64,000 nt of DNA, from the NCBI GenBank assembly GCA_015178975.1, contig WHVD01000070.1, positions 124,001 to 188,000 of the forward strand, in the 5' to 3' direction. Positions within the stretch are counted from its first letter, which is position 1; each line of letters begins with the position of its first letter. Positions 5,205 to 63,898 of this stretch are shown one piece after another. The notes below the pieces were generated by a model, which did not search any database, had not been told where the DNA came from, and saw only the letters and a list, made by a program, of their open reading frames with translations. The stretch comes from Hysterangium stoloniferum. Its lineage: Eukaryota; Basidiomycota; Agaricomycetes; Hysterangiales; Hysterangiaceae. The position numbers were made by a program, and so were the translations under genes.

Positions 5205-7313
5205 CTATACAAGGTGTCGAAGAGCATCTGGGATGCCGCCCCAAGCTTCCTGTGAGGATCCCCCAAGGTCCAAAATGATGTTTCCCCATCGTTCCCTTTT
5301 TACTCTGAAGGACTCGGCTATTCTTGCCCAAGCCAAATCACTAGAATCCCTGTGCAAGGAGTTGGCCCATCATCTGTAGGCTTTCTCCCTGCAACGAATG
5401 ACTGCACGGACACTAACCAGTGGAGCGGAAATCCGCGTGAGAAGAGGAGCATTGGGAAGGGGAAATGAAGACGCGGGTAGCAGGGCAGGAACATGTGGCT
5501 GCGTAGTGGTCTCTGTGGGAGATGTCAGGATGAGGGCCTCGAGTAAATCTACGAAGCCAGCCATAGAGAGGACACTCACTGAGTCTGGGGGCAGACGGTG
5601 GGGTTCCACTATGATGTGCCGGAACATAGAGAGTTTAATCTCCTGAGCTGCTCACGCAAAGTTCTCCCCCTCTGCGGGATCCTCGAAGGAGAGATAGAAA
5701 TCCTCCATTGTCTCAGACAACAGAGCAAGACCACGACAACCCTTAAGGCTCCCTTGAAGGACCGGTTGCTAAAGTACCGGCACTAGCTGTGATAGTACCC
5801 TTCTGACAGGAAACTGTTCGGAAGGGTAGTTGACAGCTACTCGCATCCAGAAAGTGGTGGAGATGAGCTCAGTGGGGGGAAGCGGGCTGTCAGGGACAGG
5901 AATAGGGGATCGCTCTCAGAGAGGAGTGGTGGCCTTCTGTATCTCCTTCGCTTTTCCGCTTGTCATGGGAATGATGACGTCTGGTGTAAAAGGGTCCAAA
6001 TCAACATCCATTCGCTCTTGTGGAAGGTCGTGGATAGGGCTACCTAAGGACACGCAATATGAATACGGAGAGTCGGGAGGGATAGCCGGTGACGGTGGAA
6101 GTGGGGTCGGGACCGGTACAGCTTTTGGAGAGGGAGGGAGATGGGGCACCAGAATTGGGGCTGAGGGAGTGTGTGCTGGGTGGAGGATGGGAGGGGGCCT
6201 TGACGTTGGCGAAAGGCGTGGGACTGGAATTGGGGAAGGTTCGCGTTGGGCTGAGGGAGTGTGTGCCGGGTGGAGGATGGGAGGGGGCCTCGATGTCCTA
6301 AGTGGGGTAGGGACTGGTACAGCTTTTGGGGAGGGAGGTAGATGGGGCGTTAGAATCGGGGCTGAGGGAGGGTGTGCTGGGTGGAGGGTGGGAGGGGGCC
6401 TCGACGTTGGTGAAAGGTGTGGGACTGGAATCGTGGAAGGTTCGCGTTCCTGTGATGGTTGACTAGGGCGATGACCCCTCCATACTTTGGATGACAGTTT
6501 CCACGTTTGTCGTTGGTTGGGGTCGCTGGTTACGAAGTGAACTTTCGATGGGAGGAGGAACCCTTCGTGACAATCCTCTCCCAGATACACGTCATTCCTA
6601 TTCTCATCTTCCTCCTCATCCTCATCCAAGGAAAAATCGATTGGTCCCTTATGATATCCCTTTTCTCGTGGGGGCAGCGCTTGACCATCCCCCCGGGTAA
6701 GGATTATTCGTCGCAACTTAATATGTCGGAGTAGTTCCCAGTCATAGAAGATGGTACCCTCCTTTTCCTTCTAGCTCTTGGTTCCCGTCGTCCTAATGCA
6801 AGGTGTCCCACCCTCGCTATCATCAGTCTCCGTGAAGTCGGCCCATTTCTCTCCCAGGGGGGGAAGGATCGGCGTGGAAGCTCTGCTTCCGAATCGTGCT
6901 CTGTCCTCACGCCGCTGTCGCTTGGAGGGGACTCCTTCTCTTGCTCCCCTCACCTCCTGTTGACTTCTATACTCAGCGGGCCTTTCTCTTTTGGGGGTGA
7001 GCCTTCTTGCATTGTGTTCTTCCATAAACGTTTCCTGCCTCCGCATAGTAGCAGCGACTTCCTCTGATGACGGTCTGAAGGAGGGCCCTAACGGCTTACT
7101 CCAATCCATACCGGTATTCCCCCTCGGCTCAGCACCAAAGGAGAAAGTCGACAGGGGGGTTGGTTCTTGGGTACTCCTATTGCTCTCGACATTGTCTGTA
7201 TGAGGCATGCAGGTGATGAATCCCCCGCCGGTCATGGATGTACTGGCTGTCGGGGCCCACGGGAACTTTTTGAACTTAGGGAGGACTTGCTTGTTTTGTT
7301 GGAATGGGAGCAT
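5205..7313 (-). pseudogene. ORF3 of G1: unknown protein downstream of pol
   Basis: A reading frame of about 700 codons from ATG 7313 to TAG 5205-5207, just upstream of the polypurine tract. It is broken here by a TAG at 6771-6773 (Trp in the G2 copy), a TGA at 5916-5918 (CGA in G2) and indels. The N-terminal part is basic and Ser/Pro-rich. The middle has an acidic DEDEEEDE stretch, then a conserved block (EGFLLPSKVHFVTSDPNQRQ, WRGH). Next come Pro-rich repeats (SRPPP..LHPAH) and a globular-looking C-terminal third (MFRHIIVE, LVDLLEAL). I see no membrane segment, protease, integrase or other known domain, so it is not an obvious env. Related copies at 53726-63548 and 35675-36486 suggest it is a regular part of the element. 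Function unknown. Confidence 0.75.
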
Positions 7314-23811: not shown

Positions 23812-24440
23812 AGTCCACAAAGGATGTAACAGAATGGTCAGGAATAGAACAATTTAACAATGGTGTTTAACTGAATTTACTGGAATTTACTTAAGCTTAA
23901 TTGGAATTAATTGAAATTTGATTGGATTTAATTAGAATTGACTAAAATTTACTGGAATTTGAAGGTTTACAGATATTTCATATTGACTTCCATTTCCCAT
24001 AATCTTAGTATCTTGTCTGGATATTGATTTTAATTCTTCTGAAATTTATTGTAATTTTTTTTAACACCGTCACATGGACTGACAGATGCAATGGACCCTT
24101 TACACATAACATGCTCAGTAGGTGTTTGGCAACACCTGCACACGAATGGGCACAGCACATTGCGTTTGCATGCACATGTTTGTGAGGTAATGTGCCCAGT
24201 TGTGTGACTGTGAGGGCGCATCTGGCAACACCCATGCACCCCCATATGCATGCAAATGGGTGGGGCATGTTGTACTGTATTTGCATGCATGCATTTGCGA
24301 TGTAATATGCCCAGTCGTGCAGTGTGAGTGAGGTGGCGTGAATGCAATGTGGCACGCCCATTCATGTGCGTGTGGGGTGCACATTATTTCTGAGACCCAT
24401 TGTTTGAATGGAAAGTTTTCAGAGAATGGAAAATGTGGAA
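23812..24440. other. No gene; AT-rich, then a GGGCACAGCACATTG repeat
   Basis: 23812-24060 is AT-rich with repeated GGAATTTACTTGAA-like phrases. 24090-24400 holds repeats built on ATGGGCACAGCACATTG, GCATGCAAATG and ATGTGCCCAGT that recur at 26996-27430. The ORFs in it are products of the repeats. Confidence 0.5.
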
Positions 24441-25310
24441 ACCATGTAAAGAACGGAAACCGTGTAAAGAACGGAAACCGTGTAAAGAACGGAAACCGTG
24501 TAAAGAACGGAAACCGTGTAAAGAACGGAAACCGTGTAAAGAACGGAAACCGTGTAAAGAACGGAAACCGTGTAAAGAACGGAAACCGTGTAAAGAACGG
24601 AAACCGTGTAAAGAACGGAAACCGTGTAAAGAACGGAAACCGTGTAAAGAACGGAAACCGTGTAAAGAACGGAAACCGTGTAAAGAACGGAAACCGTGTA
24701 AAGAACGGAAACCGTGTAAAGAACGGAAACCGTGTAAAGAACGGAAACCGTGTAAAGAACGGAAACCGTGTAAAGAACGGAAACCGTGTAAAGAACGGAA
24801 ACCGTGTAAAGAACGGAAACCGTGTAAAGAACGGAAACCGTGTAAAGAACGGAAACCGTGTAAAGAACGGAAACCGTGTAAAGAACGGAAACCGTGTAAA
24901 GAACGGAAACCGTGTAAAGAACGGAAACCGTGTAAAGAACGGAAACCGTGTAAAGAACGGAAACCGTGTAAAGAACGGAAACCGTGTAAAGAACGGAAAC
25001 CGTGTAAAGAACGGAAACCGTGTAAAGAACGGAAACCGTGTAAAGAACGGAAACCGTGTAAAGAACGGAAACCGTGTAAAGAACGGAAACCGTGTAAAGA
25101 ACGGAAACCGTGTAAAGAACGGAAACCGTGTAAAGAACGGAAACCGTGTAAAGAACGGAAACCGTGTAAAGAACGGAAACCGTGTAAAGAACGGAAACCG
25201 TGTAAAGAACGGAAACCGTGTAAAGAACGGAAACCGTGTAAAGAACGGAAACCGTGTAAAGAACGGAAACCGTGTAAAGAACGGAAACCGTGTAAAGAAC
25301 AGAAAGTGTT
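24441..25310. repeat. 18-bp tandem array, about 47 copies
   Basis: Near-perfect head-to-tail copies of CGTGTAAAGAACGGAAAC. Because 18 is a multiple of 3, two plus-strand frames stay open (repeating VKNGNR and CKERKP), which makes ORFs of 353 and 308 codons. The third frame has a stop in every unit. Units in the core are identical by eye, so the expansion is recent. I see no reason to call it coding. Confidence 0.92.
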
Positions 25311-25744
25311 TAGAGAATGGAAATAACAGTTACAAAAGGAACAATGCTTATAAAAGGATCAATGGTTACAAAGTAAACAACAAAGGGAACAATGTATAAA
25401 AGGATGAATCATTACAAAAGGAAAAATGGGTACCAAAGGAACAATGGTTACAAAGTAAACAACATTTATAAAGAACGAACAGTTACAAACAATGTAGAAA
25501 AGGATGAATCATTACAAAAGGAAAAATGGTTACCAAAGGAACAATGGTCACAAATGGAACAATGGTTACTAAAGGAAGAATGGTTCCAATGGTTGAATTG
25601 ACAGTCAACTAATTAATGTGGTCAGCTGATTTATTTATTTTGATTTACTTATTTCATTTTGATTCATGTATTTTATTTTGATTTATTGTATTTTATTCTA
25701 ATTTATTGAATTTCACTTTAATTTACTGCATTTTATTTTAATTT
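25311..25744. repeat. Degenerate flank of the array and TTTATTTTGATTTA repeats
   Basis: 25320-25600 contains worn, longer-period relatives of the array (ACAAAAGGAAAAATGG and ACCAAAGGAACAATGG phrases). 25620-25744 is a run of (A/T)TTTATTTTGATTTA units. No gene. Confidence 0.6.
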
Positions 25745-53188: not shown

Positions 53189-53804
53189 GCACGCCTCAAG
53201 AGCAACTGTATAGTTGCTCGTGATGGCTTAGAACAGTAAGATAATGAGTTGACCTTTTACGGTACAATTAGTAGCTAGAAATAAGTAAGATACTCAGCTA
53301 AAGACTGAGTATCTAGGATAGAGTAATAGTAGCGCAAGTCGACTACAGTGTCGACGAGCGCAAAGTCTTGAAAGTGGAACTCGACCTTAGCGGTTCGAGT
53401 CCAAAAGGCTATTAGTAGACTAGAGAATGCTACCCTTATGGTAGCTGAGATACTACCCTTGACACCTCTCGCTATTCGACGTCTGAGTCGTTATGAGGTG
53501 GTGTCTGCTGGGTAAAAGTTGTCTGTCTCTTTTGGCGCCGAGAGCGCCCATACGTATACACAAAGCTTTGAACTACAAAATCAAGGTGTGCTCGAAATAT
53601 AGAAAGAATATAAAGAAAGAAAATAAAAGGTAAATAATAAAGTACTATAATCCAGTTATTATTCCTTAGTCCAGGTATGCATATATGCATACCCTTTACA
53701 GTGCCCCCCAGTTCGAAGGGATGTGCTATACTAGGTGTCGAAGAGCATCTGGGACGCCGCCCCAAGCTTCCTGTGAGGATCCCCCAAGGTCCAAAATGAG
53801 GTTT

Positions 53805-54527
53805 TGTTACGACTGTGTCGTAACCCTTCGCAAACCGGCGGCCCCCGACGGAATACCCTCGTTATACGTCTCCGACAATACAACACCTCGGAAGCCGTCG
53901 GACCCCCGACGCTGACGTATGCTCTCCGGTCAATCAAACCCGACTACGCCTTTCTGTCTGGTTATGTTTTGATATGTCCCTTTCATCATGTTGATCCGTC
54001 TCATCTTATGTTCCACATATGTCTAACTATATTCGTAGTCCTCGAACTATTTCCTTTTATCGTAATTTCCATTCTCGGTTATCATCGGCCTCCGAACTAA
54101 TCATAAACTTCCTGTTCCTAGTCAAGCTTATTGTTAATGCCGTTTTCCGCCCTCCTCCCCATTAGTACTTTCTAGACGCCTGTTACTTGTATATGAACTC
54201 GCTGTAATTGTAGTTACTAGGCAATCAGAATATCGACTCAGAATACCCTCATACGTCTGTAGCAGTCTCATACTAGGAGAATCTCTCTTCCGCCTTCGCG
54301 TGCGCTCGTCCACTCTCGGCCCCGACCCCTTGGCCCGACACCTGACTTTTCCTTCGGTTCCGATCGGTGTCTTGCCGAAAAGTTCTTCTTAGGATTTAGT
54401 CTTCGCCTGTCCGAAATTTAAGGACAACCTACGGATATTTGCGAGGGCGCAGCATATAAGCTGAAGCCAAGTCCTTCCGATCGGTCCCCGTCGGCCACCG
54501 ACATTAGTCAGTTTCTAGTTCTTAACA
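53805..54527 (+). repeat. 5' LTR of H1
   Basis: TGTTACGAC..TTCTTAACA. TATA-like TATAT lies at 54190-54194. The segment 54223-54233 is the exact complement of the PBS, which places the likely transcript start at about 54223, 33 nt after the TATA. That gives U3 53805-54222 and R/U5 54223-54527. Confidence 0.93.
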
Positions 54528-54529
54528 GT

Positions 54530-54540
54530 ATATTCTGATT
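54530..54540 (+). other. Self-priming primer binding site of H1
   Basis: ATATTCTGATT, two bases after the LTR, is the exact reverse complement of AATCAGAATAT at 54223-54233 in the LTR. It has no TGG start, so no tRNA primer fits. In Tf1 and related chromodomain elements the first 11 nt of the RNA fold back to such a site. Here the match is also 11 nt. Confidence 0.78.
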
Positions 54541-54565
54541 TCACACTCGCATTTTCCGTCTAATC

Positions 54566-55864
54566 ATGCCTCCGAGGAAAAATGCCAAGCCTAGCGGCGA
54601 AGCAGAATCTTCCACTCTCAAGTCTCCTTTCCTGTATACAGCCCGAACTACTCAGAAAACTCCGTTACCAGAAACCTCCGAAGAATCTCGCTTTGTGGAA
54701 ATTACAGGCGATGCTGAAGAAGTAACCGAAGCAACCGACCCCGAAGCAACTGAGGAGATTAACAATCAACCAGTTTCGGAACACGAACCCGAGGATGGCG
54801 ACCAACCTCAGGCTAGTGGCTCCAAGAAGTCTGCAAAGAAGAAACCGGCTCTCGACCCTGAAGAAACATGGGAATTGTTTTCAGGTACACTAGGATCCCT
54901 TAATGAATTCCTTAAAAGCAATATCAAGGAAAAGGAACCTGGGCAAACCCGAGTCAACAAACCCGAGCCATTTACTGGCTCAAACCCGAAGAAATTGCCG
55001 ACATTTCTCATGCAATGTCGATTCAACTTTCGGGACCGCCCGGCTGCATTCGCAACGGATGACCGAAAGGTAAACTTCGCACTCTCATACCTTAAGGATT
55101 CCGCAGCAGCCTGGTTCGAACCCGCATTCTCTGGCCTCATCTCTGAAGACCCCGATTGGCTCCACGATTGGGATGCCTTTGTCGAGGAACTCGAAACCAA
55201 CTTCGGCCCCTACGACCAAACCGGCGATGCTGAAACCGCGCTTTCTAATCTCAAAATGAAAGACACTCAGCGCATCACCGATTATATTGTCCAGTTCAAC
55301 AACCTCGCCGCGCGTTGCGACTGGGGCGATTCGGCCCTCCGTTACCAGTTTTACTCCGGCCTTCCGTCTCGCCTCAAAGACGAAGTCTCCAAAGGAGAGA
55401 CCGGCAAGCCGAAAACCCTCCCTCTCATGCGCCTGAAAGCCCAAAACGCAGACGCTCGATACTGGGAACGACGTTCGGAAATCAGTCGCGAAAACCCGTC
55501 GGACAAAAAATCATCGGACAACAAAAATGCCAACAAGTCTGGTAACCAAAACACCAATATAACTGGCAACTCGACTTCCGATAAGAAGTCCGAAAACAAA
55601 GGGTCTAACGACAAAAAAGGCAAGGGCAAACAGTCGAATAAGTCTCAAGACAAAGACAAACCCGACCTAACTGGCAAACTCGGCTCCGATGGCAAGCTCC
55701 TTCCACAGGAAAAGCAACGCCGAATGGACAACAACCTTTGTTTGTTGTGTGCAGATCCCGGACACCGAGTCGCTGCATGCCCAAAAGCCACAAAAGCCCG
55801 ATCGGCCAATACGGCCACGACCTCACAACCGGCCAAGCCGGCTGCCGAGTCGAAAAAAGATTAA
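54566..55864 (+). CDS. Gag of H1
   Basis: 432 aa from ATG 54566, 26 nt after the PBS. An acidic N-terminus (to about residue 110) is followed by a retrotransposon gag/capsid domain (FTGSNPKKLPTFLMQCRFNF, YLKDSAAAWFEP, NFGPYDQTGDAETALSNLKM, YSGLPSRLKDE). A Lys/Asn/Ser-rich linker follows, then one zinc knuckle CLLCADPGHRVAAC (CX2CX4HX4C, about residue 390), and a basic tail. The knuckle should bind element RNA in the particle. The stop at 55862-55864 lies within the pol frame. Confidence 0.93.
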   Translation: MPPRKNAKPSGEAESSTLKSPFLYTARTTQKTPLPETSEESRFVEITGDAEEVTEATDPEATEEINNQPVSEHEPEDGDQPQASGSKKSAKKKPALDPEETWELFSGTLGSLNEFLKSNIKEKEPGQTRVNKPEPFTGSNPKKLPTFLMQCRFNFRDRPAAFATDDRKVNFALSYLKDSAAAWFEPAFSGLISEDPDWLHDWDAFVEELETNFGPYDQTGDAETALSNLKMKDTQRITDYIVQFNNLAARCDWGDSALRYQFYSGLPSRLKDEVSKGETGKPKTLPLMRLKAQNADARYWERRSEISRENPSDKKSSDNKNANKSGNQNTNITGNSTSDKKSENKGSNDKKGKGKQSNKSQDKDKPDLTGKLGSDGKLLPQEKQRRMDNNLCLLCADPGHRVAACPKATKARSANTATTSQPAKPAAESKKD

Positions 55865-58800
55865 GCAACTCTCTGGATTCCGTGCGGTTGGAGAGTTGCG
55901 TTGAATCTCCTCGCACACCGGAAAATTGTCATCTTAACGCATCCGCATTGTATGATCCTAATTCTTTGTTCATAAATCTTACTTCGGAACCTCTCGGGAG
56001 TTTCACTTTTCGAGCTCTCATAGATTCAGGTTCAACCCATTGTTTTATAGATACAAGTTTTTCCAGAAAAAATCAGTTGAAAACCTATGCAATAGATCCG
56101 ATTCCGCTCCGACTTTTTGATGGTACCTCAAACTCCGTAATCTCGCAAACCTGCGAACTCCGACTTCGGTTCCCGTGTGGAACCTTTCAGACAGTTACGT
56201 TTTTTGTAACACAGTTGGACTCGAGCTGCTCCGTGGTTCTAGGACATAACTGGCTCACCCGCTATAATCCGTTGATTGATTGGGTATTGGGCAGTATCCA
56301 TTTCCGAACCCCGTCGGCACCCGATACGACTGGTCCCTTTCCGCCTGTTTCGGCAAATATGGCCTCTACAGCACCTCCGGCCCCCGTGGCAAATCCGAGC
56401 TCTCCGCCGCCCGTCTCTCTAATAAACGCCGCAGCTTTTATGAGAGCCATCAAGCTGGACGGCTCCCGAGCATTTACAGTCAATCTTAAAGTTGACGAAG
56501 TCACCGGTCGCTTCGCATCCCCGGTGACCGAACCGATCGCAGATTTAGAAGGTGTTCCTAAAAAATACCATGAATTCGCAGATGTCTTCAGTAAACAAAA
56601 AGCCGATCGACTCGCCCCTCACAGGCCTTACGATTTGAAAATTGATATTGAAGATGGTTCACATCCGCCCCTAGGTCCGGTTTATCCTCTCTCGCAGTCC
56701 GAACTATCGGCTATCCGAGATTTCTTGGATGAACACTTGGCTATAGGTTTTATCCGACCCTCAAAGTCTCCCTATGGAGCCCCTGTCCTATTCGTTCGGA
56801 AAAAAGACGGTTCCCTTCGACTTTGCGTTGACTTTCGAGGACTAAACGCGATTACTCGAAAAGACAAGTACCCATTACCACTAATCTCCGATTTACTCGA
56901 CGCCCCTCGAAAGGCCCGAATTTATACAAAGATAGATCTCAAACACGCCTATCATTTGGTTCGGATCGCCGAAGGTGACGAATGGAAAACAGCTTTTCGC
57001 ACTCGCTATGGTTCCTTTGAATGGTTAGTGATGCCTTTCGGCCTCACCAACGCTCCGTCGGTCTTTCAACGTTTTATCAACGACGTCTTTTCCGACCTAC
57101 TTGACGTCTTTGTCATTGTGTACCTAGACGACATCCTCATCTTCTCCGAAGACCCTACACTTCATGATGAACACGTCCGTGAAGTCCTCCGAAGACTCCG
57201 AAAACATGGTCTTTTTGCGAATGGTAAAAAATGTTCTTTTGATGTCGACACGGTTGAATACTTAGGCTTCATGATGGAACCCGACGGTCTCCGCATGGAC
57301 GACTCTAAAATTCAAGTCATTCAAGATTGGCCGGAACCCCGAAAGGTTAAAGATATTCAGTCCTTTTTAGGCTTCGCCAATTTTTATCGCCGTTTCATTC
57401 ACAATTACTCAAAAATTACCGTTCCGCTCACTCGTCTTACTCGCAAAGACACCCCGTGGAATTTCTCCGACGAATGCCGATCAGCATTCCAGGAATTGAA
57501 AAGTGCATTTACATCCGCCCCTATTTTGTCGCACTGGAAACCCGACGTTCAACTCATCGTGGAAACTGATGCTTCGGACTATGCGCTTGCCGCGATATTG
57601 TCCATTCTGGACACCGATGGTGAAGTACACCCAGTAGCTTTTCTGTCTCGCACATTTTCGGCACCCGAACTCAACTACGACGTTCACGATAAGGAATTAC
57701 TCGCAATCTTTGAAGCTTTCAAGACATGGCGACATTATTTGGAGGGCTCGGCCCACCCGGTAGATGTTATTACAGACCACAAAAATTTAGTTTACTTTTC
57801 AACCACAAAACTTCTCACCCGTCGACAAGCTCGATGGTCCGAATACCTCTCCGCTTTCAACATGGTAATCCGCTTCCGTCCCGGCCGCCTTGGTGGAAAA
57901 CCCGATGCTATGACTAGACGATGGGACGTCTATCCTAAAGAGGGGAGTAGCGACTACGCCACAGTTAACCCGCATAATTTCAAACCTATGTTTTCATCGG
58001 AACAACTGTCCGCATCTATCCGAGCCACTTACCTCATTCATCCAGTCTTGCGAAGTGTTATCCTTATGGATACCGAAAAGTTACATCAAGACATACTATC
58101 GGCAATTCCATTAGACCCAGTCACCAAAGCACACCTCGATAACCCGTCCGACCCCGATCAACCCCGATGGTCATTAGACTCACAAGGTTTCATTCGACTT
58201 GACAATCGCATTTATGTACCGGATTCCGACACCCTTCGGCTGCGAATCCTACAACATAAGCACGACCACCCAATCTCAGGACATTTCGGCCTCAATAAGA
58301 CCCTCTCACTCATTAGAAGAGAATATACATGGCCCGGCATCCGAGATTTTGTTAAGCACTATTGTAAATCCTGTACTACGTGTTTACGCTCTAAATCACA
58401 GCGACACAAACCATATGGCCTACTCAAACAATTACCGATACCGGAAAAACCCTGGAACTCGATTTCTATGGATTTTATCGAGCACCTGCCAGCATCCGAA
58501 GGTCACACAGCAATCCTAGTTGTTGTGGATCGGCTCTCAAAGCAAAGTATTTTCATTCCAACATATGACACGATAACATCTGTACAGTTAGCTGAATTAT
58601 TCGTTACCCATGTATTTTCCAAGCATGGCGTTCCGTCGCATGTCACATCCGATCGCGGCTCCGAGTTTGTCTCTCACTTCTTTAGGTCACTCGGAAAAGC
58701 ACTAGACATGAAGTTACACTTCACTTCGGGCTATCACCCGGAAGGCGATGGACAAACCGAACGCATGAATCAAACCTTGGAGCAATACATCCGTGTCTAT

Positions 58801-59550
58801 TGCAACTATCAACAAGACAATTGGAAATCACTACTACCGCTGGCCGAATTCGCATACAACAACGCACCAAATGCCACTACTGGCATTTCGCCTTTCTTCG
58901 CAAATAAAGGCTACAACCCCAACATCGAAATCCACCCGGAACGCGATCTCGCATCCGCCCGTGCTCAAGACTTTGTTACAAACCTTGACGAGCTACATCA
59001 AGAACTTCGTAAAACTATCGCAATGGCTCAAGAACGATACCAACGGTCTGCGGATAAAAACCGACTTCCACCTCCTGATTTCAAGATCGGAGACCGAGTA
59101 TTCGTTAAAGCCGAGTTTTTCCGAACCACTAGACCTTCTAAGAAGCTCTCTGAAAAATATTTAGGTCCTTTTGAAGTCATAGCACAAGCCGGCACGCTTT
59201 CATGGACGCTTCGGCTCCCCGACAACATGCGTGCAGTACACCCGGTATTTCATGTATCCATGTTAGAACCTTGTGTTGCTAACAGTATACCCGATCGCAT
59301 ACAACCACCACCCCCACCCGTGATCATCGACGGGGAACCCGAATTTGAAATATCGGAAATCCTAGACTCCAAGATCGACAATCGCAGGCGATCGTGCAAG
59401 TTACTTTATTTGGTCAAGTGGACTGGCTATGAAGGTACAGATGAAGAAACTTCCTGGATTCTAGCTACCGAACTTGGCAATGCATCGGAAATTGTTTTAA
59501 CTTTCCATCAAACGTATCCGAATAAGCCCGGTCCTTTAGACTCTCTTTAG
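55738..59550 (+). CDS. Pol of H1: protease, RT, RNase H, integrase, chromodomain
   Basis: Open for 1270 codons in the -1 frame relative to gag, overlapping it by 127 nt. There are six A at 55853-55858 next to the gag stop, where ribosomes could slip; it is not a textbook heptamer. Protease: ALIDSGSTHCFID and VLGHNWL. RT: SPYGAPVLFVRKKDGSLRLC, YTKIDLKHAYH, MPFGLTNAPSVFQRF and catalytic YLDD. RNase H: ETDASDYALAAIL, DVITDHKNL. Integrase: H-x3-H plus CKSCTTC zinc finger, catalytic D in ISMDFIEHLP, D in VTSDRGSEF, E in HPEGDGQTERMNQTLEQ. The C-terminus has a GPFEVI..HPVFHVSMLEP tail and a chromodomain (EFEISEILDSK, LVKWTGYEG), expected to steer insertion to marked chromatin. All catalytic residues are present. 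Confidence 0.95.
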   Translation: MFVVCRSRTPSRCMPKSHKSPIGQYGHDLTTGQAGCRVEKRLSNSLDSVRLESCVESPRTPENCHLNASALYDPNSLFINLTSEPLGSFTFRALIDSGSTHCFIDTSFSRKNQLKTYAIDPIPLRLFDGTSNSVISQTCELRLRFPCGTFQTVTFFVTQLDSSCSVVLGHNWLTRYNPLIDWVLGSIHFRTPSAPDTTGPFPPVSANMASTAPPAPVANPSSPPPVSLINAAAFMRAIKLDGSRAFTVNLKVDEVTGRFASPVTEPIADLEGVPKKYHEFADVFSKQKADRLAPHRPYDLKIDIEDGSHPPLGPVYPLSQSELSAIRDFLDEHLAIGFIRPSKSPYGAPVLFVRKKDGSLRLCVDFRGLNAITRKDKYPLPLISDLLDAPRKARIYTKIDLKHAYHLVRIAEGDEWKTAFRTRYGSFEWLVMPFGLTNAPSVFQRFINDVFSDLLDVFVIVYLDDILIFSEDPTLHDEHVREVLRRLRKHGLFANGKKCSFDVDTVEYLGFMMEPDGLRMDDSKIQVIQDWPEPRKVKDIQSFLGFANFYRRFIHNYSKITVPLTRLTRKDTPWNFSDECRSAFQELKSAFTSAPILSHWKPDVQLIVETDASDYALAAILSILDTDGEVHPVAFLSRTFSAPELNYDVHDKELLAIFEAFKTWRHYLEGSAHPVDVITDHKNLVYFSTTKLLTRRQARWSEYLSAFNMVIRFRPGRLGGKPDAMTRRWDVYPKEGSSDYATVNPHNFKPMFSSEQLSASIRATYLIHPVLRSVILMDTEKLHQDILSAIPLDPVTKAHLDNPSDPDQPRWSLDSQGFIRLDNRIYVPDSDTLRLRILQHKHDHPISGHFGLNKTLSLIRREYTWPGIRDFVKHYCKSCTTCLRSKSQRHKPYGLLKQLPIPEKPWNSISMDFIEHLPASEGHTAILVVVDRLSKQSIFIPTYDTITSVQLAELFVTHVFSKHGVPSHVTSDRGSEFVSHFFRSLGKALDMKLHFTSGYHPEGDGQTERMNQTLEQYIRVYCNYQQDNWKSLLPLAEFAYNNAPNATTGISPFFANKGYNPNIEIHPERDLASARAQDFVTNLDELHQELRKTIAMAQERYQRSADKNRLPPPDFKIGDRVFVKAEFFRTTRPSKKLSEKYLGPFEVIAQAGTLSWTLRLPDNMRAVHPVFHVSMLEPCVANSIPDRIQPPPPPVIIDGEPEFEISEILDSKIDNRRRSCKLLYLVKWTGYEGTDEETSWILATELGNASEIVLTFHQTYPNKPGPLDSL

Positions 59551-59676
59551 TCCTCGCACGGTAACCGACGGCCTCCGGTTCTTCAAACATCAAGTCTCAC
59601 TAGTCGATGCTTTCAAATTTTCAATTTTCAATTCACGTTTCAAAAAAAAAAGGGGATAAAATCAATTATTATTTTG

Positions 59677-60680
59677 CTAACTACCCAAAGTACCCTCCAC
59701 TACTTCCCCTTCCTCCTCGGCCTCCGAAGCTCTTGCTTCACCGACGGCAACCGATATTCCCTTCCCTCCAGTTTCCTCCAAGGCCCTAACCGGCTCAACT
59801 TCGTCCGAACTAGGCAGCTCGAGATACTGCTCGAGCTGCCCCCCGACCCACTGTAACATGGCTGTCTGTTCTCCAATAGCCACTCCCAGCAGTCGCATTT
59901 GCTCTTGTAGGAGCCCCTGCTGTCGCAGAGACTCGTTTCGCCACCGAGTGGTCTCCGAGAAGTACAACCGCATAAGGCGGTTCTGTTCCTCCATCGCGTC
60001 TGTCTGGCGCTCTCCGTAGATCACACCCACGTCGGCCCCCGGGTAGGTACAACCAAGTTTTTGACTCGCACACTCTTGACATGTGCGGCCCCGACCGTTC
60101 GCCCGAGGATGGCAAGCCCGGTTCCGAGCAGTGCAGCGGTTACACCTAGGATCGTTTTCAGGCCCCGCCTTTGGGACTCCTTTTTGTCTCTATCACTAAA
60201 AGTCAGTAACAAGAAAAATATATATATGCATAAATACCTTCGGGCTCGAAGGCCCCGCAGCCTCATCCTCATCTTCCTCGTCCTCTTCATCGGAGACCGA
60301 CGGTGATACTGCCTTTCGCTGAGAAGAAAACATTAGTAGAGATTCGCAGTGCGGTATTTCTCCTAACTTACCTTCCCTTCTCGTTTCTTTCTCGCCTCCT
60401 CCTCTCGGGCCCGACCGGCCTCCTGCTGTTTTTTCCTCGCAAGATCAGCCTCCCGACGCTTGCGTGTAGCTTCCACCTCCGCCCGTCTCTTCTCCTCCGC
60501 CTCGGCCACCTCAATCGCTTTCAGCTCCTCCATCTCCTTTCGTTCCTCCTCCTCGCGTGCCTTTTTCCTTGCCTCGAGTTGGCGACGACGCTCTAGTGCA
60601 TTCAGCGTCCCACTCGGACCCGACGCGGGAGTTACTGTCAGCCTCACAGGGATGGTCTTCGCCCCAGTGTTCACTGACAT
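59677..60680 (-). CDS. Antisense three-exon gene in H1: coiled coil plus Zn2Cys6-type cluster
   Basis: Opposite to gag-pol, between pol and the 3' LTR. Exons 60372-60680, 60238-60318 and 59677-60189; introns of 53 nt (GTAAGT..TACTAAT..CTCAG) and 48 nt (GTATTT..CTGAC..GATAG). Joined in phase they encode exactly 300 aa. Residues about 38-103 are a Lys/Glu/Arg-rich coiled coil (ERRRQLEARKKAREEEERKE), and 112-122 an acidic tract. Residues 146-177 contain six cysteines, C146, C149, C156, C167, C170 and C177, spaced CX2CX6CX10CX2CX6C, the pattern of fungal Zn(II)2Cys6 DNA-binding clusters. The rest is helical (EEQNRLMRLYFSETTRWRNE) and ends acidic. An upstream in-frame extension into the LTR antisense strand (to 60986) is possible, but ATG 60680 is the better start. 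Function is not known; binding DNA or nucleic acid is inference from the cysteine pattern. Introns can persist because the element RNA is the other strand. Confidence 0.8.
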
Positions 60681-60840
60681 TGTGTTTTGGAGGAAAGATT
60701 GAAGAATAAAGCGCCTTGTAACCTCCCATTTCTTATATGCGAAAATTTTACCGGTCACATGACGTTCTGACACACAACCCGTAACCGACGTTGTTTTACG
60801 TACACGATCTAGATTTTCGGCCTCCTTGGGATTTCGGCCA

Positions 60841-60853
60841 AATGAGGGGATAC
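60841..60853 (+). other. Polypurine tract of H1
   Basis: AATGAGGGGATAC abuts the 3' LTR at 60854. Short, but in the expected place for the plus-strand primer. It also lies in the 5' flank of the antisense gene. Confidence 0.6.
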
Positions 60854-61576
60854 TGTTACGACTGTGTCGTAACCCTTCGCAAACCGGCGGCCCCCGACGG
60901 AATACCCTCGTTATACGTCTCCGACAATACAACACCTCGGAAGCCGTCGGACCCCCGACGCTGACGTATGCTCTCCGGTCAATCAAACCCGACTACGCCT
61001 TTCTGTCTGGTTATGTTTTGATATGTCCCTTTCATCATGTTGATCCGTCTCATCTTATGTTCCACATATGTCTAACTATATTCGTAGTCCTCGAACTATT
61101 TCCTTTTATCGTAATTTCCATTCTCGGTTATCATCGGCCTCCGAACTAATCATAAACTTCCTGTTCCTAGTCAAGCTTATTGTTAATGCCGTTTTCCGCC
61201 CTCCTCCCCATTAGTACTTTCTAGACGCCTGTTACTTGTATATGAACTCGCTGTAATTGTAGTTACTAGGCAATCAGAATATCGACTCAGAATACCCTCA
61301 TACGTCTGTAGCAGTCTCATACTAGGAGAATCTCTCTTCCGCCTTCGCGTGCGCTCGTCCACTCTCGGCCCCGACCCCTTGGCCCGACACCTGACTTTTC
61401 CTTCGGTTCCGATCGGTGTCTTGCCGAAAAGTTCTTCTTAGGATTTAGTCTTCGCCTGTCCGAAATTTAAGGACAACCTACGGATATTTGCGAGGGCGCA
61501 GCATATAAGCTGAAGCCAAGTCCTTCCGATCGGTCCCCGTCGGCCACCGACATTAGTCAGTTTCTAGTTCTTAACA
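60854..61576 (+). repeat. 3' LTR of H1
   Basis: Identical by eye to 53805-54527. Followed by the target duplication GGTTT and then the rest of G2 ORF3. Confidence 0.93.
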
Positions 61577-63548
61577 GGTTTCCCCATCGTTCCCTTTTTA
61601 CTCTGAAGGATTTAGCTATTCTCGCCCGAGTCAAATCATTAGAATTCCTGTACAAGGAGTCGGCCCATCGTCTGTAGGCTTTCTCTCTGCAACGAACGAC
61701 TGCGCGGACACTAACCGGCGGAGCGGAAATCCGTGTGAGAAGAGGAGCATTGGGGAGGGGAAATGAAGATGCGGGCAGTGGGGCAGGAACATGTGGCTGC
61801 ATGGTGGTCTCTGTGGGAGGCGTCAGGACGAGGGCCTCGAGTAAATCTACTAAGCCAGCAATAGAGAGGACATTCGCTGAGTCTGGGGGCAGACGGTGAA
61901 GCTCCACTATGATGTGCCGGAACATAGAGAGTTTAATCTCCTGTGCTGCTCGTGCAAAGTTCTTCCCCTCTGCGAGATCCTCGAAGGAGAGATAGAAATC
62001 CTCCATTATCTCCGACAACGGAGCCAGACTGCGACAACCCTTGAGGCTCCCTTGAAGGACTGGTTGCTGAAGTACTGGCACGAGCTGTGATAGCACCCTT
62101 CTGACAGGAAACTGTTCGGAAGGGTAGTTGACAGCTACTCGCATCCAGAAAGTTGTGGATACGGGCTCAGTGAGGAGAACTGGGCTGTCAAGGACAGGAA
62201 TAGGGGATTGTTCTCGGAGAGGAGTGGTGGCTTTCTGCATCTCCTTCGCCTTTCTGCTTGCCATGGGATCGATGACGTCTGGTGTAGGAGGGTCCAAATC
62301 GACATCCATTTGCTCTGGTGGAAGGTCCTGGATAGGGCTACCCAAGGACACGCAATATGAATACGGAGAGTCGGGAGGGATACCCGGTGACGGTGGAAGT
62401 TGGGTCGGTACCGGTATAGCTTTCGGGGAGGGAGAGAGACGAGGCGCCAGAATCGGGGAAGGTTCGCGTTGGGCTGAGGGAGTGTGTGTCGGGTGGAGGA
62501 TGGGAGGGGGCCTCGACATCCCAAGTGAGGTTGGGACTGGTACAGCTTTTGAAGAGGGAGGTAAATGAGGCGTTAGAATCGGGGCTGAGGGAGTGTGTGT
62601 AGGGTGAATGATGGGAAGGGGCCTCGACGTTGGCTAGAGATGTGGGACTGGAATCGTGGAAGGTTCGCGTTCCAGTGACTGTTGACTAGGGCAGTGACCC
62701 CTCCATACTCTGGATGACAGTCTCCGCGTTTGTCTTTGGTTGGGGTCGCTGGTTACGAAACGAACTTTAGACGGGAGAAGGAACCCTTCATGGCAATCCT
62801 CTCCCAGAGATCGGATGCTATACACGCCATTCCTGTTCTCGTCCTCCTCCTCATCCTCGTCCGAGGAAAACTCAATTGGTCCCCTACGGTATCCCTTTTC
62901 TTGTTGGGGCAGCGTTTGACCGTCCCCTCGGGTAAGAACTATGCGTTGCAACTTAATGCGTCGAAGTAGCTCCCAGTCGTAAAAGATGGTACCCTCCTTC
63001 TCCTTCCAGCTCTTGGTTCCCGTCATCCTAATACAAGGTGTCCCACCCTCACTATCATCGGTCTCCGCGAAGTCGGCCCATTTCTCTCCCACGGGGGGAA
63101 GGATCGGCACGGAAACTCTGTTTCCGCATTGCACTCTGTACTCACGCCGCTGCCGCTTGGAGGGGACTCCTTCTCTTGCTCCCCTCGCCTCCTGTTGACT
63201 TCTATACTCAGCACGCCTTTCTCTTTTGTGGGTGAGTCTCCTTGTGTTGTGTTCTTCCATAAACATTTCCTGCTTCCACATGCTAGCAGCGACTTCCTCA
63301 GATGACGGTCTGACGGAGGGGCCTAACGGCTTGCTCCAATCCGTACCGGTATTTTCCCCCGGCTCATCACCAAAGGAGAAAGTCGACAGGGGGGTTGATT
63401 CTTGGGTACCCCAATTGCTCTCGACATTGTCTGTACGAGGCACGCGGGTGATGAATCCCCCGCCGGTCGTGGATGTACTGGCTGTCGGGGCTCGCGGGAC
63501 CTTTTTGAACTTAGGGAGGACTTGCTTGTTTTGTTGGAAAGGGAGCAT

Positions 63549-63898
63549 TATAGCACGATAAAAGTGGTGAAGTTGAAGATAGAGGGAAGGGCTGTAGATA
63601 GGTGAAGGACGTGGTGTGAAAGATAAAGAAAATTTATGCGAATTTACGTGTACTTTTTTTTATATATATATTGAATTGAAACTCCGCTCGGTTGGTCGTT
63701 AAATAAAATTCATTAATTGTGGTCGGGTTTTGGGGAAATGTGTCCGCTGCCAATTAATGGTTGTCCCAATCGACCGAAGGGATAGAAAAATGAAAAAGAA
63801 TAAAAGCCAATGAGATGGCTCACTGAATAACTGAGATATTTCTGAAAGGAAGTTACAAAAGAGAGGGAATAGATGATTCCTTGAGCGCATATATCCCG
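63549..63898. other. G2 spacer between pol and ORF3
   Basis: 63549-63770 matches the G1 spacer 7314-7530. Left of about 63771 G2 and G1 are alike; to the right G2 has about 125 bp of different sequence leading to a pol end, whereas G1 runs straight into its RNase H tail. No gene. Confidence 0.55.

Follow-up and report, generated by a model that had tools for sequence, protein, structure and literature searches.

An intron-bearing antisense gene with a Zn2Cys6-like cluster in a gypsy element of Hysterangium stoloniferum

The gypsy element and its antisense gene

The window (the whole 64,000-nucleotide stretch of Hysterangium stoloniferum DNA analysed here) contains at positions 53805-61576 a gypsy element, intact in outline, which hosts an additional gene on its minus strand (Table 1). 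The element shows the features of the gypsy (Ty3) group, namely gag, pol with the integrase after the reverse transcriptase (RT), LTRs, a polypurine tract (PPT) and a target site duplication (TSD), and its pol reading frame differs from that of gag. The PPT motif was present in 41 of 44 copies. An internal A10GGGGATA at 59645 was considered as the relic of an older PPT and rejected, as it is absent from the spacers of ten divergent loci. The dyad at the tip of U3 is kept as a candidate operator only, since about 1.6 such dyads are expected per element.

Table 1. Features of the gypsy element and of its antisense gene in the window
Feature	Position	Strand	Basis
TSD GGTTT	53800-53804 and 61577-61581		read from sequence
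5' LTR, 723 bp	53805..54527	+	identical to 3' LTR; end read from sequence
gag	54566..55864	+	Pfam Retrotrans_gag, Ty3_capsid on 54569-55864; start codon read from sequence
pol open frame: protease, RT, RNase H, integrase, chromodomain	55642..59550	+	ORF; Pfam on 55861-59550
Spacer, 126 nt, pol stop to antisense-gene stop	59551..59676		sequence
Exon 3 with stop, 170 codons: zinc cluster, helical region, acidic tail	59677..60189	-	sequence and copies
Zn2Cys6-like cluster, residues 146-177	60049..60144	-	copies and profile comparison
Intron 2, 48 nt, GTATTT..CTGAC..TAG	60190..60237	-	47-57 nt in copies
Exon 2, 27 codons, acidic tract, basic ends	60238..60318	-	sequence and copies
Intron 1, 53 nt, GTAAGT..CTAAT..CAG	60319..60371	-	splice ends in 27/27 copies
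Exon 1, 103 codons, charged helix	60372..60680	-	sequence and copies
Promoter-like region, 173 nt, ATG to LTR	60681..60853	-	conserved in types A, B and one type C locus (L069)
TATA-like box CATATAAG (CATATAAAA in other types)	60732..60739	-	59 nt upstream of ATG
Conserved boxes GTCACATGAC and TGACACA	60754..60774		column conservation
Strongly conserved block with direct repeat GGCCGAAA (minus strand), candidate binding site	60806..60839		column conservation
Polypurine tract	60840..60853	+	read from sequence
3' LTR	60854..61576	+	no difference from 5' LTR
Dyad GTTACGAC-TGT-GTCGTAAC, U3 tip	60855..60873, also 53806-53824		not significant by itself

The antisense gene occupies positions 60680-59677, between pol and the 3' LTR, and comprises three exons with 300 codons and a stop. 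The original prediction had joined three minus-strand ORF pieces through two introns into a product of this length, and both its coordinates and its structure proved exact. The predicted spacing of the six cysteines was likewise confirmed, residues 146, 149, 156, 167, 170 and 177 forming the motif CX2CX6CX10CX2CX6C. With its spacers left partly free, this six-cysteine pattern occurs once in the window and in none of 60 windows of 64 kb simulated by a first-order Markov model. The antisense orientation explains how a retrotransposon can retain introns, because on the sense-strand genomic RNA there are none to be removed and they can outlast retrotransposition.

Proteins of the Zn(II)2Cys6 family (PF00172) have the spacing CX2CX6CX5-12CX2CX6-8C, which the antisense protein fits, and the zinc-cluster cysteines are invariant across nine aligned sequences. 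The claim that this spacing makes the product a Zn(II)2Cys6 regulator was nevertheless not supported as it stood. The window protein matched no Pfam family, PF00172 included, and three of nine relatives gave a weak match to PF00172, the best of which reached 18.4 bits against a gathering score of 21 (E 0.0024, in one relative). In these three relatives it is the first half-cluster that aligns to the second half of the PF00172 model in the stretches shown, and, as read from the sequence, the basic contact pattern usual after the second cysteine is absent. Family membership by pattern alone was rejected. What stood is a remote kinship: a profile comparison between five zinc segments of the gene's own copies, low in diversity, and ten host Zn_clus ORFs (10 of the 14 fetched) gave a probability of 90% and an E value of 1.5e-6 with all six cysteines in register, and none of 100 permutations, in which the cysteines were fixed and the other columns shuffled, reached its score (best 29.1 against 32.4). 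The comparison supports the view that the cluster is Zn2Cys6-like, a remote relative below threshold and not a certified member of PF00172. Elsewhere in the genome, PF00172 matches were seen in close pairs or rows (C56:27459-45410, C115:74483-75050 and C309:4792-5007), some with equal open-frame length; this suggests tandem zinc-cluster proteins that recur on several contigs and may form a further expanded or mobile family.

As for the charged coiled coil that had been proposed, the charge was found and the coil was not. Residues 28-102 are 64% charged and lack any heptad signal (2000 of 2000 permutations reach the observed value), so that the N-terminal coiled coil was rejected in favour of a charged helix without heptads, and residues 186-254 give a weak heptad signal (reached by 118 of 2000 permutations). 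Basic stretches around SPKRQK are kept in the gene types A and B described below and look like a nuclear localisation signal. Searches of PDB, NCBIfam, plasmids and IMG/VR returned nothing useful. From these features the product can be predicted, with reasonable likelihood, to be a nuclear zinc-cluster DNA-binding protein.

Upstream of the gene, conservation over 29 copies reaches 90% or more in 86 of 153 columns (the 20 nt on the PPT side being left out), compared with 27 of 126 for the spacer, 16 of 53 for intron 1, none of 48 for intron 2 and 184 of 300 for LTR positions 151-450, where the conservation is ascribed to the closer kinship of this segment between types. The block beside the PPT could also serve reverse transcription. 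Given the TATA-like box and the conserved boxes, the antisense gene is probably read from a TATA promoter of its own beside the LTR.

Several observations concern the surroundings and the condition of the elements. The minus-strand ORFs 5919-6770 and 62637-63659 share a closely similar stretch (KEKEGTIFYDWELL...), so that what follows the element on its right seems to be a copy of a further gene repeated within the window. At 24118-25396 there are open frames on both strands, apparently tandem-repetitive (KERKPC and SVLYTV units). In ten LTR pairs, from copies among L013-L024, nearly all differences are transitions (121 of 125) and most fall in a CpG context (87 of 125), a pattern suggestive of cytosine methylation or RIP-like decay of the element. 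L017 keeps both LTRs, its flanking 5 bp do not match, and it is perhaps a product of recombination between elements.

Copies and selection in the Hysterangium genome

A DNA search of the window's own genome (111 Mb, 554 contigs) gave 41 places, of which 30, the window among them, are near-complete; the window together with 26 of the other 29 (three were left out) formed a set of 27 close copies. Copies conserving the frame and the six cysteines, whose absence would have counted against the original prediction, were found: the GT..AG ends of both introns are kept in all 27 (intron 2 varying from 47 to 57 nt), and all six cysteines in 26, L030 being without the last one. Six copies are fully intact (the window, L003, L011, L012, L020 and L025), and in L009 the frame is open and the start codon changed. 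The remaining close copies carry stops or frame changes; most copies are therefore dead.

In the 16 most diverged copies (L017-L032) the sense dN/dS was 0.13-0.23, and a second count on another alignment gave 0.13-0.30 for the same 16 and 0.13-0.21 for ten divergent loci, so that the comparison of dN/dS among copies, proposed earlier as a check, came out in favour of a constrained sense frame. The opposite-strand control frames lay above the sense value in 16 of 16 copies, two of them at 0.88-2.36 and the third at 0.20-0.36; the third positions of this last frame seem to coincide with those of the gene. The ten closest copies (0.04-0.63) hold too few changes to be informative, and the sense value of L009 and L010 (0.63) lies above some of the controls. 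Judged by these ratios, the sense frame is under purifying selection and the gene is not a product of chance; with its conserved splice ends, it is almost certainly a real, spliced protein-coding gene.

A protein search with exon 3 returned about 150 matches (the best 150 of 648 candidates), down to 53% identity. Besides type A, the window's own, we distinguish a type B of ten divergent loci, in which exons 1 and 3 are kept antisense beside pol in all ten and exon 2 in nine, the adjoining pol sequence amounting to only 21 residues in L035. Four of the ten (L033, L034, L036 and L037) are intact, with 288-294 residues and GT..AG introns. In these first two sets, pol adjoins the gene at 36 of 36 gene loci. 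From the opposite direction, a pol-end search (the best 150 of 2221 candidates) left about 30 pol matches without a listed gene match, and all eight of the pol loci picked by eye from these carried the gene or remnants of it, L047 with part of exon 3 only and L045 cut by the contig end. Type C consists of three more distant loci (L067, L068 and L069) with 41-44% identity in exon 3. In L069 the gene, the upstream region and a 72% identical pol occur together; neither pol nor the upstream region was found within the 2.7 kb examined at L067 and L068.

Searches of protein databases gave relatives in Hysterangium stoloniferum only (P0001-P0003), and one search gave none. As all three come from the window's species, they provide no cross-species evidence; residues 3-116 of P0001 have a 100% match in the window's genome. 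P0002, a public protein model from the same genome, aligns without gaps across both exon junctions of the spliced type B model, and its gene model therefore removed the same introns. This protein has an unrelated N-terminal part and ends after the first half-cluster, and P0003 is joined differently.

Mosaic history of the gene types

Compared at the sequence level, gene types A and B are far more diverged than most of the surrounding gag-pol and LTR sequence. Between the types, dS of the gene is 1.3-1.8 in all ten type B loci (values above 1 being rough), whereas that of pol, in the eight loci where over 100 pol codons could be aligned, is 0.34-0.75, which gives a gene/pol ratio of 2.0-5.3. 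This difference speaks against the notion that the gene simply evolves faster, without any exchange between elements, which we regard as improbable. Such a faster rate finds some support within type A, where the dS of the gene is 0.5-1.75 times that of pol and at least equal to it in 13 of 16 copies.

A comparison along the length of the element, in 300-nt intervals, points to the same conclusion. A type B element, represented by L043 and L036 (adjoining pieces of one locus), is 88-97% identical to the window's element in gag-pol and 69-78% in the cassette, and the type A copy L026 is 83-93% and 81-88% identical, respectively. The window's element is thus nearer to the type B element than to L026 in 15 of 17 gag-pol intervals and equally near in two, whereas its gene is nearer to L026, which again speaks against a mere difference in rate. 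Because the last pol interval is one of equal distance, the left border of the block falls within the pol end and not exactly at the stop. In pol, another type B locus (L044/L038) lies at about the same distance from the window's element as L026.

The LTR is divided in a similar way. Positions 151-724 are little diverged between types, far less than the gene and the first part of U3 (1 to about 150), which is diverged like the gene; this too speaks against rate alone. The distance from the spacer of the window's element to those of 16 type B copies is 0.44-0.57. Among pairs matched for an LTR 151-450 distance of 0.08-0.11 (L028 pairs left out), the U3 1-150 distance is 0.154 for the 18 pairs within types and 0.339 for the 119 pairs between types, and that of LTR 451-724 is 0.124 and 0.134, respectively. 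At equal LTR 151-450 distance, A-B pairs are more diverged than pairs of one type in the gene, its promoter, the spacer and U3 1-150 and not in LTR 451-724, and the partial r with the gene is 0.57 for U3 1-150 and -0.32 for LTR 451-724. The counts of A-B pairs are not independent events, since all of them trace back to a single old split.

Correlations with gene distance were computed over 41 elements (3 of 44 were dropped as the PPT pattern was absent), from the 659 of 820 pairs for which every value was available; they are 0.94 for the upstream region, 0.87 for the spacer, 0.86 for U3 1-150, 0.64 for LTR 151-450, 0.52 for the pol end and 0.32 for LTR 451-724. The low value for the pol end had seemed to uncouple it from the gene, a reading that was rejected because the value arises from two loci whose pol ends are broken: with these excluded the correlation rises to 0.87 and the LTR values become 0.63 and 0.29, and the rank correlation is 0.75 with the two loci and 0.81 without them. 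From the corrected values, the gene is uncoupled from the body of the LTR and not from the pol end. That the pol end then follows the gene exactly as closely as the spacer does is in favour of a mere difference in rate, and so is the correlation of gene distance with every segment within each type (0.86-0.98 in type A, 0.67-0.94 in type B). U3 1-150 is fast-evolving within type A as well, and its co-travel with the gene may be due to linkage and saturation. The copy L028 combines a type A gene (0.118 to the nearest A, 0.337 to the nearest B) with a spacer (0.148) and a U3 tip (0.089, both to the nearest B) that are B-like; in this recombinant the gene has moved alone, and its pairing with the U3 tip is thus not absolute.

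Possible roles and known antisense genes

The best explanation of these data would be a nuclear regulator that the gypsy element encodes for itself, a reading suggested by sequence comparisons and to which we give a probability of roughly 0.56. The antisense gene would be transcribed from a separate TATA promoter adjacent to the LTR, and its transcript spliced at the two introns, steps that we infer from conserved sequence and from an outside gene model. The product would then enter the nucleus by means of the basic stretches around SPKRQK, where its two CX2CX6C half-clusters would form a Zn2Cys6-like DNA-binding module. The protein may bind the conserved blocks in the promoter of its gene, and perhaps also the U3 tip next to it; that it acts on the LTR or promoter of its own element is a more tentative proposal. 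Binding would control transcription of the element, either as autoregulation with copy-number control or as relief from host silencing, and given the host pressure visible in the LTR pairs, silencing relief is as open as autorepression. By analogy with the immunity region of lambdoid phages, the gene, promoter and U3 tip might even constitute a module of self-recognition, which is a speculative and rather unlikely extension. If it were true, the alleles would recognise different operators in the promoter and LTR tip, and recombination would join regulator and operator on shared gag-pol/LTR backbones, allowing escape from mutual copy-number control. The copy L028 and the corrected pol-end correlation slightly reduce the likelihood of both this module and the regulator.

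Other roles for the gene can be considered. The double CX2CX6C could bind RNA, or be a structural or protein-interaction module, in an accessory factor that helps in the cytoplasm or the particle as a chaperone or in trafficking of the pre-integration complex. We consider this unlikely, though not negligibly so: it would agree with the missing PF00172 match above cut-off and the long charged helix, but the six cysteines in register with fungal Zn_clus, equalled by none of the 100 controls, and the basic stretches kept in both types favour a DNA-binding protein. Accessory roles of this kind are discussed for plant antisense ORFs in passages of PMC7264820, as is the possibility that the antisense transcript itself matters, by forming dsRNA with the genomic RNA such that RNA interference limits the element and the protein is secondary. 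The gene does lie opposite the 3' part of the genomic RNA; however, dN/dS values of 0.13-0.30, in-frame exons and kept splice sites denote selection on the protein and make an action through RNA quite improbable. Least probable is a captured host gene that travels as a passenger and does nothing for the element, in spite of the resemblance of its zinc cluster to host Zn_clus genes, as selection has been maintained between types A and B, relatives are as distant as 41-44% identity in exon 3, and the gene or its remnants recurred at every one of the eight pol loci.

The self-encoded regulator would not be isolated among LTR retrotransposons. The original prediction knew of no gypsy element with such a gene, a claim that fails because antisense genes at the same position are published and the kind is known. 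Antisense ORFs between pol and the 3' LTR (aORF-3R) are described for the plant gypsy elements Grande (gene23), RIRE2, Retand and PvRetro13 in the parts consulted of PMC7264820 and PMC11963269, and for a fungus, Botrytis cinerea, the gene brtn of the element Boty/BcGypsy1 has been reported (PMC8365987 and PMC7264820, both citing Zhao et al. 2011); passages of PMC6338049 contributed nothing relevant. Where these sources touch on what antisense accessory genes do for LTR retrotransposons, they call it unknown.

The gene reported here agrees with the plant aORF-3R, as far as those parts go, in its position between pol and the 3' LTR, its orientation opposite to gag-pol and its presence in most copies of the family. 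It would further share with Grande the own promoter and nuclear product (here proposed from sequence features), and with the TRP28 protein of Retand the proposed DNA binding and regulatory role. Unlike the plant genes, which in the same parts carry TRP28 or SMC domains and for which no introns are reported there, it has a zinc cluster and two introns and resides in a chromodomain-bearing fungal element. With brtn, as cited, it has in common that both are antisense extra genes of a fungal gypsy element.

The resemblance to fungal Zn(II)2Cys6 factors comprises the six-cysteine spacing, the order of cluster and then helical region, and the remote profile similarity; in contrast to them, the antisense protein stays below the Pfam cut-off and is without the basic contact pattern in the first half. 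A further parallel is HBZ of HTLV-1, a spliced bZIP regulator of the LTR whose promoter lies in the 3' LTR. It differs in having a bZIP in place of the zinc cluster and in its promoter, which here would be beside the LTR, and we know of no homology between the two genes. HBZ is antisense and nuclear according to passages of PMC11963269, and the likeness is that of an antisense regulator at the 3' end of the element, nuclear by prediction in our case.

Among titles and opening lines of abstracts of open-licence PMC articles we found no Zn2Cys6 or spliced antisense gene in a fungal retrotransposon, which is not proof of absence. Compared with the systems above, what is new here are the introns, the zinc cluster and the exchange of the gene between elements, that is, its mosaic history. 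The gene offers a recognisable candidate DNA-binding domain, a promoter-like region and many natural alleles, and, with different gene types on shared backbones, it makes the function of this class of antisense accessory genes testable.
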